Assembly: GCF_002797895.1 (NCBI RefSeq)
Contig: NZ_PGES01000001.1
Span: 3,224,001-3,288,000, forward strand
DNA from: Janthinobacterium sp. 67
GTDB taxonomy: Bacteria > Pseudomonadota > Gammaproteobacteria > Burkholderiales > Burkholderiaceae_D
Reading direction: 5' to 3'
Length of the DNA: 64,000 bases
In this document: in pieces, positions 36,989-43,687 of the stretch
Layout of the letters: each line of letters begins with the position of its first letter
Position numbering within the stretch: position 1 is the first letter of the stretch
Translations under genes and position numbers: made by a program
Notes under the pieces: model-generated
Seen by the model: only the letters and a program-made list of their open reading frames with translations
Database searches by the model: none
What the model was told of the DNA's origin: nothing

Positions 36989-38290
36989 TTACGATGGGCG
37001 GGTGCTGGTTGGGAATGGCCAGGCTGCAGCCGGTGCCAACACGGTTTTTGCTACAGGTGCGATAGGCGCCGATGGCTTGGCGACAGGAGCTGCCTTCTTC
37101 GGTGCGGCCTTTTTAGGCGCGGCCTTCTTGGCGGCTGGCTTGGCGGCCACGGCGGCTGGTGCCGCTGGAGCTGCTGCCGGCGCTGCGGCTGGTGCGGCTG
37201 CCGCGACTGGCGCTGCGGCTGCTGGCTTGGCGGCAGGTTTCGCTGCTGCTTTTGCTGCCGGCTTGGCTGCCGGTTTGGCGGCTGGCTTGGCGGCTGGCTT
37301 GGCGGCTGGCTTCGCTGCAGCTTTTGCTGCTGGCTTGGCTGCCGGTTTCGCTGCGACCTTGGCAGCAGGTTTCGCTGCTGGCTTGGCTGCCGCTTTTGCT
37401 GCTGGCTTGGCTGCTGGCTTGGCTGCTGCCTTTGCCGCTGGCTTCGCTGCTGCTTTTGCTGCCGGCTTCGCTGCTACCTTGGCCGCTGGCTTGGCTGCTG
37501 CTTTGGCTGCTGGCTTCGCTGCAGCTTTTGCTGCTGGCTTGGCTGCTGCTTTTGCGGCTGGCTTGGCTGCTGCCTTGGCGACGACTTTTTTCGCTGCTGG
37601 CTTGGCTGCCGCTTTGGCTGCCGGCTTCGCTGCTGCCTTGGCTGCAGGTTTCGCTGCCGCTTTTTTCACTGCTGGCTTGGCTGCGGCTTTTGCTGCTGGC
37701 TTCGCTGCTGCTTTGGCGGCTGGCTTGGCTGCTGCTTTTGCTGCCGGCTTCGCTGCTGCTTTTGCTGCCGGCTTCGCTGCTGCTTTGGCGACGACTTTTT
37801 TCGCTGCTGGCTTGGCTGCCGCTTTGGCTGCTGGCTTCGCTGCTGCCTTGGCTGCAGGTTTCGCTGCCGCTTTTTTCACTGCTGGCTTGGCTGCTGCTTT
37901 TGCCGCTGGTTTGGCTGCGGCTTTTGCTGCTGGCTTGGCGGCCGGTTTGGCTGCGGCTTTTTTCGCGACAGGCTTGGCTGCTGCCTTGGCGGCCGGTTTC
38001 GCTGCGGCTTTCGCTGCTGGCTTGGCTGCAGGTTTCGCTGCAGGTTTCGCTGCAGGTTTTGCCGCTGCCTTGGCCGCTGGTTTCGCTGCGGCTTTTGCTA
38101 CTGGCTTGGCAGCCACTTTTGCTGCAGGCTTGGCTGCGGCTTTGGCGGCTGGTTTTGCTGCTGGTTTCGCTGCGGCTTTGGCAGCTGGTTTAGCGGCAAC
38201 CGTCTTCGCTGCGGCTGCCGGCTTCTTCGCGGCAGGAGCAGCCTTGGCGGCTGGTTTCTTTACTTCTGATTTCTTAGCGGCTGTTGCCAT
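36989..38290 (-). CDS. Histone H1-like Ala/Lys/Pro-repeat protein (AlgP-like)
   Basis: A 433-residue low-complexity protein made almost wholly of AAKPAAK-type repeats, strongly basic and probably DNA-binding like AlgP (AlgR3) of Pseudomonas or histone H1-like proteins of Bordetella. A GGAGAGAC site precedes the ATG at 38290. The repeats include a 210-bp tandem duplication: the KKVVAK unit recurs at 37581 and 37791. Its last 60 residues are Ala/Pro-rich and not repetitive. The opposite strand is also open across the gene because of codon periodicity. PhaF-type granule binding is less likely because no phasin domain is seen. Confidence 0.88.
   Translation of the reverse strand: MATAAKKSEVKKPAAKAAPAAKKPAAAAKTVAAKPAAKAAAKPAAKPAAKAAAKPAAKVAAKPVAKAAAKPAAKAAAKPAAKPAAKPAAKPAAKAAAKPAAKAAAKPVAKKAAAKPAAKPAAKAAAKPAAKAAAKPAVKKAAAKPAAKAAAKPAAKAAAKPAAKKVVAKAAAKPAAKAAAKPAAKAAAKPAAKAAAKPAAKAAAKPAVKKAAAKPAAKAAAKPAAKAAAKPAAKKVVAKAAAKPAAKAAAKPAAKAAAKPAAKAAAKPAAKVAAKPAAKAAAKPAAKAAAKPAAKPAAKAAAKPAAKPAAKVAAKPAAKPAAKAAAKPAAKPAAKPAAKPAAKPAAKAAAKPAAKPAAAAPVAAAAPAAAPAAAPAAPAAVAAKPAAKKAAPKKAAPKKAAPVAKPSAPIAPVAKTVLAPAAAWPFPTSTRPS
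37581..38000. repeat. 210-bp imperfect internal duplication in the H1-like gene
   Basis: The block starting ACGACTTTTTTCGCTGCTGG at 37581 recurs at 37791, exactly 210 bp (70 codons) away. The copies stay nearly identical for about 110 bases and then drift. This shows growth of the gene by tandem duplication in whole codons. Confidence 0.75.
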
Positions 38291-38586
38291 TTGTCTCTCC
38301 TTCATCTGAGATGAGAAATTTAAGCTACAAGATTTAAACCCGTCCGACCCACCACAGGGATAGGCCAGGCGAATTATTCATCGGCACAAACGGTCGTTTG
38401 CGCTAATGAATTCGGCACCAGCTGAACTGCTGCAACTCCTCACGTTTGCAGCACTTCAGCCATCGTCGGTGCCACCCTGCTTTATCTCGCAGCTGGTGGC
38501 AAAGTCTGAATTCGGTCATTCGTTTTCGATGCCGTGCGTTTTTTCGCTCCTCGCATCGCGCTCGCCACAACACCGATACGTCAAAT
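38291..38586. other. Leader/promoter region of the H1-like gene
   Basis: No credible ORF is seen. The minus-strand promoter of the H1-like gene should lie here, close to its start. Together with the small RNA candidate and the nrdB fragment next door it forms a 1.2-kb stretch without an intact protein gene. Confidence 0.5.
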
Positions 38587-38624
38587 AAAAAACCGCCATG
38601 CCTGAAAAAATTCGGGCACGGCGG
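38587..38624 (-). terminator. Orphan intrinsic terminator (minus strand)
   Basis: The stem CCGCCATGCCTGAA ... TTCGGGCACGGCGG, allowing two G-T type pairs, is followed on the minus strand by six Ts. It has no protein-coding gene immediately upstream. Confidence 0.8.
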
Positions 38625-38737
38625 CAGACGAAAACGGTGTGGTTTTGTGCATATCCGTGTAAATCTGTATCCCTGTTTTGCGAGGTTTTTTCGCTACCGC
38701 GCTGGTTAAAAAACCCCGCATTCTAACGCTCGCATTT
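38587..38737 (-). ncRNA. Candidate small RNA (promoter, stem-loop, terminator)
   Basis: Read on the minus strand, a TTGACA/TATGAG promoter (38770-38743) is followed by a 12-bp stem with 16-base loop (arms GCGGGGTTTTTT at 38719-38708 and AAAAAACCTCGC at 38691-38680; one G-T pair). Next comes an intrinsic terminator (stem 38624-38593 with T-run 38592-38587). The predicted RNA is about 150 nt. No protein gene on this strand would need this terminator: the nrdB fragment upstream has its own. It could also be a leader of the H1-like gene ended by attenuation. It is not an RNA family I recognise. Confidence 0.45.
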
Positions 38738-38742
38738 GCAAT

Positions 38743-38770
38743 CTCATAAAGTACACGAAAACCTTGTCAA
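38743..38770 (-). promoter_or_regulatory. Putative sigma-70 promoter for the small RNA candidate
   Basis: On the minus strand a consensus TTGACA (38770-38765) is followed after 16 bases by TATGAG (38748-38743). The start of transcription is expected near 38736. Confidence 0.45.
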
Positions 38771-38975
38771 TGCGCAACCGGCACGACACGTTTTCGCCCG
38801 CTTTTTTGCACGATACGCGTGCTATCGCACAATCGCGCGGCAAATGCCGCCGCCAGCGTCTGCGGAAATGATTTTTTGGCTTCGTGATGCGGCCATTCGC
38901 GGCATCCGAAAATCCTGGCGCAAGCGTCGTCGCATGGCCCGATGAAGCACGCATTTTTCCGCCGCGATGCACGCG

Positions 38976-39006
38976 AAAAAAAAGCGCCGTCACGATGACG
39001 GCGCTT
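38976..39006 (-). terminator. Terminator of the nrdB fragment
   Basis: The stem AAGCGCCGTCA ... TGACGGCGCTT (38982-39006) is followed on the minus strand by eight Ts. It is nearly the same as the terminator of intact nrdB at 39385-39414, so the terminator belongs to the repeated unit. Confidence 0.9.
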
Positions 39007-39028
39007 CCTGGCGTTGACTGAAAAAGGA

Positions 39029-39370
39029 TTACTCCCAGTTCAGCGCACCACCCGTTTGGTACTCGGTCACGCGCGTCTCGAAGAAGTTGCGTTCCTTCTT
39101 CATGTCGATCATTTCGCTCATCCACGGGAATGGATTTTCTTCCTGGGCGAACAGCGGCTCAATGCCGATCTGCTGCGCGCGGCGGTTGGCGATGAAGCGC
39201 AAATAGCCCTTGAACATCGGCGCGTTCAGACCCAGCACGCCGCGCGGCATGGTGTCTTCCGCGTACGCGTATTCCAGTTCCACGGCTTTCATGAACAGGT
39301 CCTTGATCTCTTCGCGGCAGGTCGTCATCCACGGCGGCGGGTTTTCCATCTTGATCGTGTTGATCAAGTA
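39029..39370 (-). pseudogene. 3'-terminal fragment of nrdB (ribonucleotide reductase beta)
   Basis: This fragment encodes the last ~113 residues of NrdB, from INTIKMENP to the C-terminal GGALNWE, and lacks the metal-binding and radical sites, so it cannot be active. It repeats the 3' end of the intact gene at 39466. Over the last ~95 codons the proteins are identical while about nine codons differ synonymously; the ~12 codons near the break differ more (PPPWMTTC versus PQLWTAAF). Homology stops near 39370, after the shared ATCAACACGATCAAG region. The ORF extends a few codons into unrelated sequence. Confidence 0.9.
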
Positions 39371-39384
39371 AATGTCCCGCCACA

Positions 39385-39414
39385 AAAGAAAAGCGCCGTC
39401 AGATGACGGCGCTT
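39385..39414 (-). terminator. Intrinsic terminator of nrdB
   Basis: The stem AAGCGCCGTCA ... TGACGGCGCTT (39391-39414) lies about 50 bases after the nrdB stop, with a short T-rich tail on the minus strand (TTCTTTT). It has a near-identical twin at 38976-39006. Confidence 0.85.
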
Positions 39415-39465
39415 CGGCAAAACGGGATAAGGCACCCCGCCTTGTATTTTTACTTCAGTACTGGC

Positions 39466-40617
39466 TTATTCCCAGTTCAACGCACCACCCGTTTGATACT
39501 CGGTCACGCGCGTCTCGAAGAAGTTGCGTTCCTTCTTCATGTCGATCATTTCGCTCATCCATGGGAATGGATTTTCTTCCTGGGCGAACAGCGGCTCGAT
39601 GCCGATCTGCTGCGCGCGGCGGTTGGCGATGAAGCGCAGGTAGCCCTTGAACATCGGCGCGTTCAGACCCAGCACGCCGCGCGGCATGGTGTCTTCGGCG
39701 TACGCGTATTCCAGTTCCACGGCTTTCATGAACAGATCCTTGATCTCTTCGCGGAAGGCGGCCGTCCACAACTGCGGATTTTCCATCTTGATCGTGTTGA
39801 TCAAGTCGATGCCGAAGTTGCAGTGCATCGATTCGTCGCGCAGGATGTACTGGTACTGCTCGGCCGCGCCCATCATCTTGTTCTGGCGGCCCAGCGCCAG
39901 GATCTGCGTGAAGCCGACGTAGAAGAACAGGCCTTCCATCAGGCAGGCAAAGACGATCAGGGATTTGAGCAGCTTCTGGTCGTTTTCCACCGTGCCGGTG
40001 ACGAACGCCGGATCGGTCAGGGTGTTGATGAACGGGATCAGGAATTCATCCTTGTCGCGGATCGACTTGACTTCGTTGTAGGCGTTGAAGATCTCGCCTT
40101 CATCCAGGCCCAGCGATTCGACGATGTACTGGTAGGCGTGCGTATGGATCGCTTCCTCGAACGCCTGGCGCAGCAGGTACTGGCGGCACTCGGGCGCCGT
40201 GATGTGGCGGTAGGTGCCCAGCACGATGTTGTTGGCGGCCAGCGAGTCGGCCGTCACGAAGAAGCCCAGGTTGCGCTTGACCAGGCGGCGCTCGTCGTCC
40301 GTCAGGCCGTTCGGGTTTTTCCACAGCTCGATGTCGCGCTGCATGTTCACTTCCTGCGGCATCCAGTGGTTGGCGCAGCCGGCCAGGTATTTGTCCCACG
40401 CCCATTTGTACTTGAACGGCACCAGCTGGTTGACGTCCGTCTTGCCGTTGATGATGCGCTTGTCGTCCGCATTCACGCGGCGCGCCACTTGCTCGGCGTT
40501 CGCTTCGGACGGCTCGGCACCTGCCGGCAGGTTCAATTCGGTATTACCCAGTGGCGCTTGCTGCGCCGGACGCGGCACAGCTGCCGACGTGGTTTCATCA
40601 TCCCATGACAACGACAT
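39466..40617 (-). CDS. nrdB: Ribonucleoside-diphosphate reductase, beta subunit (class Ia)
   Basis: Provides the tyrosyl radical/di-metal site for deoxynucleotide synthesis. The 383-residue protein has metal-ligand motifs [18 protein letters not shown], which also contains the candidate radical Tyr, and [10 protein letters not shown]. It ends GGALNWE. AAGGAAGAAGAAT directly precedes the ATG at 40617, which decides the start over an upstream in-frame ATG at 40635. It lies 118 bases after nrdA with a hairpin between, and its 3' end is repeated downstream at 39029. Confidence 0.96.
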
Positions 40618-40701
40618 ATTCTTCTTCCTTTCCATGCCGGCGAGCCGGCGGTCCGCAACAGGCCCGTTGTATCGGACAATGCGGACATTGACAACATTGA
40701 A

Positions 40702-40735: not shown

Positions 40736-43687
40736 TTACTGGCAGGCTTCGCATTCTTCGAAACCGTCATCACCTGGGCGCAGGTAGCAAGCTTCGCCAT
40801 CGGCGTCGTCCGCTGCCGCCGCCACTACCGGCGCCACGGCCACCGCTGCTGCCGCCACGACCGCTGCCTGGGCGCTTTGCGCGCTGGCCGACATGCCGCC
40901 ATCGACTGCCACGGCGTTCAGGGCGCCTGTACGGGAGGTCGATTTCTCCATGTGGGTGGCGGCGATGGTACGCAGGTAGTAGGTGGTTTTCAGGCCACGC
41001 AGCCATGCCAGCTTGTAGGTCTCGTCCAGTTTCTTGCCCGATGCGCCAGCCATGTAGATGTTCAGCGACTGGGCCTGGTCGATCCACTTCTGGCGACGCG
41101 AAGCCGCTTCCACCAGCCAGCTTGGCGACACTTCGAAGGCGGTGGCGTAGATGTCGCGCAGGTCTTGCGGGATGCGGTCGATCTTCACCAGCGAGCCGTC
41201 GAAGTACTTCAGGTCGGAGATCATGACTTCATCCCACAGGTCGCGCGCCTTCAGGTCGCGCACCAGGTAGCCGTTGATCTCGGTGAATTCGCCCGACAGG
41301 TTCGATTTCACGTACAGGTTCTGGAACGTCGGTTCGATACAGGCCGATACGCCGATGATGTTCGAAATCGTCGCCGTCGGGGCGATCGCCACGCAGTTCG
41401 AGTTGCGCATGCCGAACTTGGCGATGCGTTCGCGCACCGGGGTCCAGTCCATGGCCGACGAGGAATCGACTTCCAGGTAGCCGCCGCGCTCTTCGGCCAG
41501 CAGTTTGACCGAGTCCTGCGGCAGGATGCCGCGGTCCCACAGGGAACCGGCGTACGATTCATAGCGGCCGCGCTCTTCGGCCAGTTCCGTCGACGCCAGG
41601 TAGGCGTAGTAGCAGACGGCTTCCATCGAGGTGTCGGCGAACGACACGGCGGCGTCCGAGGCGAACGGCACGCGCATCATGTGCAGGCAGTCCTGGAAAC
41701 CCATCACGCCCATGCCGACCGGACGGTGGCGCATGTTCGAGTTGCGCGCCTTGTCGACGGCGTAGTAATTGATGTCGATGACGTTGTCGAGCATGCGCAT
41801 GGCGGTACGGATGGTCTTGGCCAGCTTGACGTGGTCGATCTTGCCTTCCTTCATGTGCGCCGGCAAGTTCACGGAACCGAGGTTGCAGACGGCGATTTCG
41901 TCAGGGCCCGTGTTCAGCGTGATTTCCGTGCACAGGTTCGAGCTGTGGACGACGCCGACGTGCGACTGCGGGCTGCGGATGTTGCAAGGATCCTTGAACG
42001 TGATCCATGGGTGGCCCGTTTCAAACAGCATCGACAGCATCTTGCGCCACAGGTCCAGCGCGGCGATCTTCTTGAAGACGCGGATTTCGCCGGCGGCGGC
42101 CTTGGCTTCGTAGCCCAGGTAAGCCTGTTCAAAGGCCTTGCCGACCTTGTCGTGCAGGTCCGGCGTGTCCGACGGCGAGAACAGGGTCCAGTCGCCTTTT
42201 TCCATGACGCGCTTCATGAACATGTCGGGAATCCAGTTCGCCGTGTTCATGTCGTGCGTGCGGCGGCGGTCGTCGCCCGTGTTCTTGCGCAGGTCGAGGA
42301 ATTCCTCGATGTCCATGTGCCAGGTTTCCAGGTAGGCGCAGACGGCGCCCTTGCGCTTGCCGCCCTGGTTGACTGCCACGGCCGTGTCGTTGACCACTTT
42401 CAGGAACGGCACCACGCCTTGCGACTTGCCGTTCGTGCCCTTGATGTGGGCGCCCAGGGCGCGCACTGGCGTCCAGTCGTTGCCCAGGCCGCCGGCGAAC
42501 TTGGCCAGCAGCGCATTGTCCTTGATGGCGTCGTAGATGCCTTCCAGGTCATCGGAGACGGTGCTCAGGTAGCACGACGACAGCTGCGAGCGCAGGGTGC
42601 CCGAATTGAACAGGGTCGGCGTCGAGCTCATGAAGTCGAACGAGGACAGCAGGCTGTAGAACTCGATGGCGCGCGCTTCGCGGTCCGCTTCGTTCAGCGC
42701 CAGGCCCATGGCCACGCGCATGTAGAACGCCTGCGGCATTTCGATGCGCACGTCCTGGATGTGCAGGAAGTAGCGGTCGTACAGGGTTTGCAGGCCGATG
42801 TAGCCGAACTGCAAGTCGCGGTCGGCGACGATGGCTTTGGCCAGGCGCTCCAGGTCGAAACTGGCAAGTACCGGGTTCAGCAGCTCGGCGGCGATACCCT
42901 TGGCAATGTATTGCGGGAAATACGTCAGGTATTCGCTAGCAGCGGCCGCTTGCGGCACTTCCTTGCCGAACACTTCCTTGCGCACCGTGTGCAGCAGGAT
43001 GCGGGCCGTGACCTGGCTGTAGGCCGGGTCTTTTTCCATCAGCGCGCGCGCCGCCAGGATGGCCGACTTGTGCAGCTCTTCGACGGGCACGCCGTCGTAC
43101 AGGTTTTTCACCGTTTCAGCCAGGATGGCGTCGGCATCGACGTGCTTTTCCAGGCCGGCGCAGGCGGCGTTGATCAGGTCGCGCACTTCCTGCATGTCCA
43201 GCAGGCGGCGCACGCCGTTATCCAGCACGTTCAATTGTGGCGCGGTCACTTGCGCGGACGCGCCTTGCGCTTCCTTCTGCAGGCGGCGCTCTTCCATGTG
43301 CTTGGCGCGGTACAGCACGTAGGCACGCGCCACGTCGTGCTCGCCCGAACGCATCAGCGACAGTTCCACCTGGTCTTGCACGTCTTCGATATGGAAGGTG
43401 CCGCCGCCCGGATGGCGGCGCACCAGCGCGGCGACGACGCCGTCGGTCAGTTGTTCCACCAGTTCGCGGATGCGTGCCGAGGCTGCGCCCTGGCCGCCGT
43501 TAACGGCCAAAAACGCCTTGGTCATGGCGATGGCGATCTTCGAAGGCTCAAATGCCACCACCGCGCCGTTGCGGCGGATGATGCGATAGTCGCCCAATGC
43601 CGCGCCCGTGCTCGCCACGCTGTTGGCCGCGCCTGGCGCTGGCGATACTGGCGTTGGATGGATGGAAATATCTTGTGGTGATTGCAT
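40736..43687 (-). CDS. nrdA: Ribonucleoside-diphosphate reductase, alpha subunit (class Ia)
   Basis: A 983-residue catalytic subunit reducing ribonucleoside diphosphates. It has an N-terminal ATP-cone allosteric domain (starting IIRRNGAVVAFEPSKIAIAM, about residues 37-56), the active-site Cys region HSSNLCTEITLN, MGVMGFQDCLHMMRVPF, and the C-terminal redox Cys pair in EECEACQ that is recharged by thioredoxin or glutaredoxin. It is longer than E. coli NrdA (761) mainly through N- and C-terminal extensions. GGGAGCTTCA precedes the ATG. NrdR-type boxes lie about 265 bases upstream. Confidence 0.97.
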   Translation of the reverse strand: MQSPQDISIHPTPVSPAPGAANSVASTGAALGDYRIIRRNGAVVAFEPSKIAIAMTKAFLAVNGGQGAASARIRELVEQLTDGVVAALVRRHPGGGTFHIEDVQDQVELSLMRSGEHDVARAYVLYRAKHMEERRLQKEAQGASAQVTAPQLNVLDNGVRRLLDMQEVRDLINAACAGLEKHVDADAILAETVKNLYDGVPVEELHKSAILAARALMEKDPAYSQVTARILLHTVRKEVFGKEVPQAAAASEYLTYFPQYIAKGIAAELLNPVLASFDLERLAKAIVADRDLQFGYIGLQTLYDRYFLHIQDVRIEMPQAFYMRVAMGLALNEADREARAIEFYSLLSSFDFMSSTPTLFNSGTLRSQLSSCYLSTVSDDLEGIYDAIKDNALLAKFAGGLGNDWTPVRALGAHIKGTNGKSQGVVPFLKVVNDTAVAVNQGGKRKGAVCAYLETWHMDIEEFLDLRKNTGDDRRRTHDMNTANWIPDMFMKRVMEKGDWTLFSPSDTPDLHDKVGKAFEQAYLGYEAKAAAGEIRVFKKIAALDLWRKMLSMLFETGHPWITFKDPCNIRSPQSHVGVVHSSNLCTEITLNTGPDEIAVCNLGSVNLPAHMKEGKIDHVKLAKTIRTAMRMLDNVIDINYYAVDKARNSNMRHRPVGMGVMGFQDCLHMMRVPFASDAAVSFADTSMEAVCYYAYLASTELAEERGRYESYAGSLWDRGILPQDSVKLLAEERGGYLEVDSSSAMDWTPVRERIAKFGMRNSNCVAIAPTATISNIIGVSACIEPTFQNLYVKSNLSGEFTEINGYLVRDLKARDLWDEVMISDLKYFDGSLVKIDRIPQDLRDIYATAFEVSPSWLVEAASRRQKWIDQAQSLNIYMAGASGKKLDETYKLAWLRGLKTTYYLRTIAATHMEKSTSRTGALNAVAVDGGMSASAQSAQAAVVAAAAVAVAPVVAAAADDADGEACYLRPGDDGFEECEACQ

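Follow-up and report, generated by a model that had tools for sequence, protein, structure and literature searches.

A second nrdB 3′ end in Janthinobacterium as the probable scar of one-sided recombination

In a screen for homology-facilitated illegitimate recombination (HFIR) in Escherichia coli, 56 of 60 clones gave a partial-duplication PCR product and 4 of the 60 looked like true HFIR; partial duplications of 109-950 bp were confirmed in 14 sequenced clones, and the authors read them as the outcome of a single crossover of a donor circle that lacked part of its homologous end (PMC3240628). For the T6SS effectors of Vibrio cholerae, a second report proposes that incoming DNA anchored on one side pushes the old 3′ part and immunity genes downstream, so that arrays build up (PMC5361080). 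Insertion with long target duplication (Nobusato et al. 2000) is described as often tied to restriction-modification genes (PMC1643837, PMC3154945), and in the merodiploids of Streptococcus pneumoniae a duplication that can keep an essential gene intact is reported to arise when the cell takes up DNA of which part is already repeated in its chromosome (PMC3784515).

The recombination scar at the present locus is well supported and of a kind already known; its recurrence at one gene is unusual, and its value lies in joins that are repeated and readable. A search of the open-licence PMC literature for nrdB together with partial duplication and recombination, or with an insertion hotspot, returned nothing on point.

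Layout of the nrdB 3′ region

The window, a stretch of 64,000 nt from Janthinobacterium sp. 67 (genome G000), carries nrdA (40736-43687, minus strand; assigned from its reading frame) upstream of an intact gene for the 389-aa small subunit of ribonucleotide reductase (39466-40635, minus strand; supported by its frame and by relatives across genus and family), which we take to be nrdB, following the initial annotation. Behind this gene lies a 96-nt spacer of the GCCAGTACTG type (39370-39465), whose low-coordinate end is the non-homologous join, and then a 341-nt fragment of the nrdB 3′ end (39029-39369, minus strand). Each 3′ end is followed by a terminator, both being strong GC hairpins on the minus strand. 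The second terminator, at 39390-39415, now closes the intact nrdB and is found by both consensus scan and folding (z -5.1), while the one behind the fragment, at 38976-39006, folds with a z of -3.5 and is absent from the list of the consensus scan. The native flank downstream of nrdB (38306-38975), continuous with a complete nrdB in G010, G012, G004 and others, reaches from there to a Lys/Ala-rich gene (36989-38305, minus strand) that forms the other border of the variable interval and that, from its AAKPAAK repeats, is presumably histone H1-like. In other genera, four loci (L093, L094, L096, L097) likewise have a frame resembling this gene on the far side of nrdB.

The two 3′ ends form an ungapped direct repeat of 95 % (39026-39325 against 39463-39762), and over the 341 nt from 39029-39369 and 39466-39806 they are 94.7 % identical, far above chance. 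This comparison and the two folds confirm the second nrdB 3′ end with its own terminator that had been noticed in the initial annotation; the 3′ end is indeed repeated, but the repeat stops at 39369 and leaves the spacer at 39370-39465. Counting the stop as codon -1, there are nine differences between codons -2 and -91, and all nine are silent, in keeping with the earlier count of about nine silent changes in the final ~95 codons (9 nt over the last 96 codons). The protein-changing differences are confined near the break, as had also been stated: a cluster at 39317-39337 (minus strand; codons -97 to -103) holds eight nucleotide differences in six amino-acid-changing codons and is identical in G015. 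One further amino-acid change is found at codon -114, just beyond the aligned repeat, and codons -105 and -115 contribute two additional silent changes. By NG86, dS is 0.168 and dN 0 over the last 96 codons, and dS is 0.317 and dN 0.176 over the 17 codons adjoining the break; over all 113 codons dN/dS, the measure suggested in the initial annotation, is 0.13 and not near 1. Nine of nine random changes would be silent by chance with a probability of 7e-7 to 2e-5, the range reflecting the assumed transition bias. These nine silent differences mean that each stretch belonged to a working gene until recently; a young age of the duplication itself does not follow from them.

The cluster has a possible source of its own. 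A patch at 39314-39340 matches another gene of the same genome at 25 of 27 nt (E 2e-4), which from its sequence we take to be a D-2-hydroxyacid dehydrogenase; the same stretch of the full nrdB copy has no match below E 0.2 outside nrdB. The 27-nt match is suggestive of template switching, and the protein-changing patch may be a copied patch, not accumulated decay.

The fragment resembles nrdB up to 39369 and no further, and no extended homology was seen at that join. The whole spacer was found in 2 of 40 genus genomes and 2 of 294 genomes drawn from the family, namely that of the window and G015 (Janthinobacterium sp. GW456P), which agree at 92 of 96 nt. Among the same 40 and 294 genomes no donor of the spacer was found, all other matches being to the terminator hairpin or to short pieces.

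Resident position and recurrence

Which of the two 3′ ends occupies the original place can be read from relatives. Our genus set comprised 40 genomes, and the query has a match in 38 of them; G028 (88 % complete) and G037 (82 %), which gave none, are both fragmented. In 19 single-copy genomes the flank that follows the fragment in the window follows a complete nrdB, in 10 of them over the whole 829 nt and in 9 with an interruption by some tens of extra or diverged nt, and in single-copy relatives a hairpin much like that at 38976-39006 follows the gene. Because its flank follows complete nrdB in these relatives, the fragment holds the resident position and, judged by the shared flank, is the displaced resident nrdB 3′ end, in agreement with the proposal of the initial annotation that recombination left an old 3′ end behind. 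Other genus genomes have unrelated sequence directly after the nrdB stop codon, often with genes. In G005 these encode LysR, SnoaL-like and short-chain dehydrogenase proteins (Pfam), with like frames, among those listed, in G007, G024 and in part G001; in G016 an EamA transporter (Pfam) is found there, with similar frames, again among those listed, in G033 and G009. The interval beyond nrdB is a place of frequent change.

An nrdB 3′ fragment is present in five of the 38 matching genus genomes, from three separate joins, and missing from the other 33. Event A, in G000 and G015, comprises 341 nt of nrdB and the 96-nt spacer. Event B, in G018 and G005, comprises 802 nt of nrdB and a spacer of approximately 800 nt with 45 % GC and new reading frames, 95 % alike in the two genomes. 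Event C, in G027, comprises 624 nt of nrdB and an 88-nt spacer that is little more than a terminator. We also observed a 110-aa reading frame in the spacer of event B (L035 in G018, L032 in G005), the G005 version of which has no Pfam match.

As a control, 35 oriented 20-kb regions of the genus were compared with themselves for direct repeats within 6 kb, with minima of 100 nt and 75 % identity. This returned the five nrdB repeats and a set of repeats of 75-81 %, which we assigned by distance, not one by one, to the histone-like gene; an nrdA repeat was found in none of the 35 regions. G021, G022 and G031, with shorter loci only, lie outside the control and the tree described below.

In the family draw, which did not include G018 and G027, 267 of 294 genomes match the nrdB tail. 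More than one match was seen in 11 of them, namely G000, G015, G005 and eight genomes from other genera. Outside the genus, fragments lie directly downstream of nrdB in G179 and G290. The 876-nt fragment of G179, with its break ~880 nt before the gene end, is decayed throughout, and G290 (L093, 5689-6900) has a tandem array behind nrdB that consists of an 83-nt stub and two 343-nt fragments. Five candidates were rejected as fragment carriers: in G049 and G132 the second match is a full gene on another contig, in G185 it is 35 % identical and far away, in G299 the match is split at contig ends, and in G090 it is weak and contains stops. Within the genus of G290, 60 of the 61 genomes drawn match and eight have two or more matches; among these eight, G290 alone has fragments near its nrdB, six have the second match elsewhere, and G324 has contig-end matches only. 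A different arrangement was observed in G141 (L095, 4361-13897), where two full nrdB copies, nearly identical (98 % over 2357 nt that take in part of nrdA), lie at a distance of 7 kb and enclose PAAR, Tox-REase-5 and Imm52 genes (Pfam); an older nrdA piece of 414 nt is also present. Insertions beside the nrd genes have apparently been repeated in this other genus.

In all seven genomes with fragments the full gene is on the nrdA side. As the gene is probably essential, the only joins to be seen are those in which a full copy survives.

Decay gradient and possible spread of the joins

In events A, B and C alike, the far part of the fragment remains nrdB-like and decay is concentrated beside the break. 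For B and C the nearest relative of the far part is the full gene of the same genome: G018 differs from its own copy at 7 of 690 positions (next-best allele, 20), G005 at 2 of 690 (18), and G027 at 7 of 470 (17). The break-proximal parts in B and C are strongly altered, and the altered part is common to G018 and G005. Judging from these distances, the far part appears to track the host's own nrdB while the break-side part ages. Such patterns would result from exchange with single-copy alleles via the flank, from transfer in which the crossover falls within the fragment, or from gene conversion. The fragment of G179, with 73-84 % identity per 90-nt block, shows even decay and no gradient, as one would expect once a duplicate has ceased to be renewed.

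The initial annotation had argued that a decayed tandem duplicate would not show a pattern of almost only silent differences. This was too strong, as all three genus events keep their far part nrdB-like. The far-part identity in B and C is such as gene conversion or renewed exchange would give, and silent-only differences are therefore compatible with an old duplicate.

Event A is without the concerted pattern seen in B and C. The window fragment differs at 7 of 285 positions from G004, G012 and G014 and at 9 from its own full copy, so that it is not closest to its own. The far parts of the G000 and G015 fragments are different alleles, with 8 differences in the last 174 nt, and the two genomes share the break-proximal patch. 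Across the sampled genus genomes, allele relationships point clearly to neither a donor nor a host lineage for either copy; in the flanking genes the closest species sampled reach ~95-96 % identity, and along the operon the similarity forms a mosaic.

The carriers of each shared event are not sisters in a FastTree tree built from ten flanking genes of 35 genomes (10,884 columns). For event A, G000 groups with G007 and G001 (0.97) and G015 with G012 (0.999); for event B, G018 groups with G038 (0.82; with G029 and G032, 1.0) and G005 with G004 (0.90). Given these positions, horizontal spread through nrdB homology would be the simpler reading, notably for B. Event A may instead be old and shared by common descent, with many losses by loop-out: the G000 and G015 spacers differ at 4 of 96 nt, which is about the divergence of the flanking genes (95.35 % identity), and loop-out between direct repeats is easy.

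Proposed mechanism and comparison with known systems

We propose that the window probably carries the scar of a one-sided recombination at the nrdB 3′ end, homologous within nrdB and illegitimate at the other end. Incoming DNA that carried an nrdB 3′ end with its own terminator would have paired with the resident gene by homology, and the other end of the donor, having no matching partner, would have been joined ~341 nt before the stop codon. The product would be a complete nrdB with a new 3′ untranslated region, followed by the truncated resident 3′ end in its native flank. Both marks of such a scar, an intact target on the homologous side and a truncated resident copy on the other, are present in the window. 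The likeliest route would be that the donor, with part of its nrdB end missing, had formed a circle and entered by a single crossover; integration of a linear molecule, by homology at one end and illegitimately at the other, ranks second, and the data fit both. Later exchange with single-copy alleles, or gene conversion, would then keep the far part nrdB-like while the break side mainly decays. The DNA may have entered by uptake; ComEC and DprA are present in the genome, though they are not diagnostic of this, and E. coli also has both.

The main alternative is that replication slippage or sister-strand exchange duplicated the nrdB 3′ end and its terminator in place, long ago and with no foreign DNA, and that conversion has since maintained the copy. 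We consider this unlikely. In its favour, gene conversion would account for the decay gradient, the G027 spacer is hardly more than a terminator, and in the G290 array the same 3′ untranslated region and terminator, or its start, follow every copy, with spacers of ~95 nt. A simple tandem duplication places the same sequence downstream of both copies, which is what G290 displays; in the window and in G015, what follows one stop codon is unlike what follows the other except in the terminator hairpin. Duplication alone would also hardly yield the spacer that G018 and G005 have, with its ~800 nt, 45 % GC and new frames. Duplication in place is thus likely for G290 and possible in an ancestor of event A, and an earlier duplication of this kind in a donor strain would be compatible with the window too.

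The breaks of event A and G290, in different genera, are no more than 2 nt apart, at 341 and 343 nt before the gene end. Estimated roughly by hand, with about ten pairs of break points distributed over a kilobase, chance would bring two so close together in about one case in fifteen. As a long shot, the nrdB stretch GAC(C/T)TGATCAACACGATCAAG may be a preferred break point, cut or joined by a dedicated activity, at which nrdB-anchored cassettes with replacement 3′ ends form repeatedly and then spread between strains by nrdB homology, with the gene as a landing site and without an integrase. A pattern scan for this break point and spacer length across a collection of 84,980 species gave one record, GW456P; the scan may omit records close to the window, and the collection may lack G290, whose sequence seems to fit but which is not among the hits. 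The same near-identical breaks and ~95-nt spacers could be attributed to a site-specific mobile element that targets nrdB, supplies a replacement 3′ end and is now a short remnant. This is very improbable: the other breaks, ~624, 802 and 880 nt before the gene end or inside nrdA, leave no fixed attachment site, an integrase would not fit into the 96-nt spacer and was not noticed in the insert frames listed (ten proteins were scanned against Pfam), and the pattern scan yielded its single record. The suggestion in the initial annotation of a mobile segment carrying nrdAB is not supported either, given the short spacer, the varying break points and an nrdA that is unrepeated in the 20-kb regions. 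Finally, the open reading frame of the fragment, with 96 codons of silent differences only, could be imagined as a functional gene under purifying selection, for example for a short protein with the NrdB C terminus, but this is scarcely credible, as the G015 fragment has a frame-shifting 11-nt deletion and two missense changes and is therefore not maintained by selection in that genome, a terminator stands immediately upstream, a scan of 38900-39600 gave no sigma-70-like site, and 33 of the 38 matching genus genomes do without it.

If the window indeed carries a one-sided scar, the locus is informative beyond nrdB. Comparisons commonly reveal gene gain at hotspots and seldom the mode of joining, which nrdB records: the length of the fragment shows where the illegitimate join fell, and the gradient of decay is a hint of subsequent exchange. 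One could use the locus to follow, in natural genomes, the frequency with which one-sided integration works outside the laboratory. There is also a caution in it, namely that silent-only differences between a gene and a fragment of it are no proof of recent import.

Set against the described systems, the resemblance differs from case to case. The duplications of S. pneumoniae span ~100 to 900 kb between existing repeats, unlike the short joins at nrdB. As in insertion with long target duplication, the insert in the window lies between long direct repeats of its target, nrdB; unlike the inserts reported as often tied to such genes, the 96-nt spacer carries no gene, and thus no restriction-modification genes. 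The arrays of V. cholerae find a parallel in G141, with its PAAR, Tox-REase-5 and Imm52 genes between two nrdB copies, whereas the part displaced in the window is the tail of a housekeeping gene and not, as in the cases set out for V. cholerae, a potentially useful immunity gene. The partial duplications of E. coli share with our locus one homologous and one non-homologous join and a partial target copy beside the insert; those were obtained by laboratory conjugation with a selected plasmid, whereas the joins reported here occurred in natural genomes, at the end of an nrd gene, and repeatedly at one locus.
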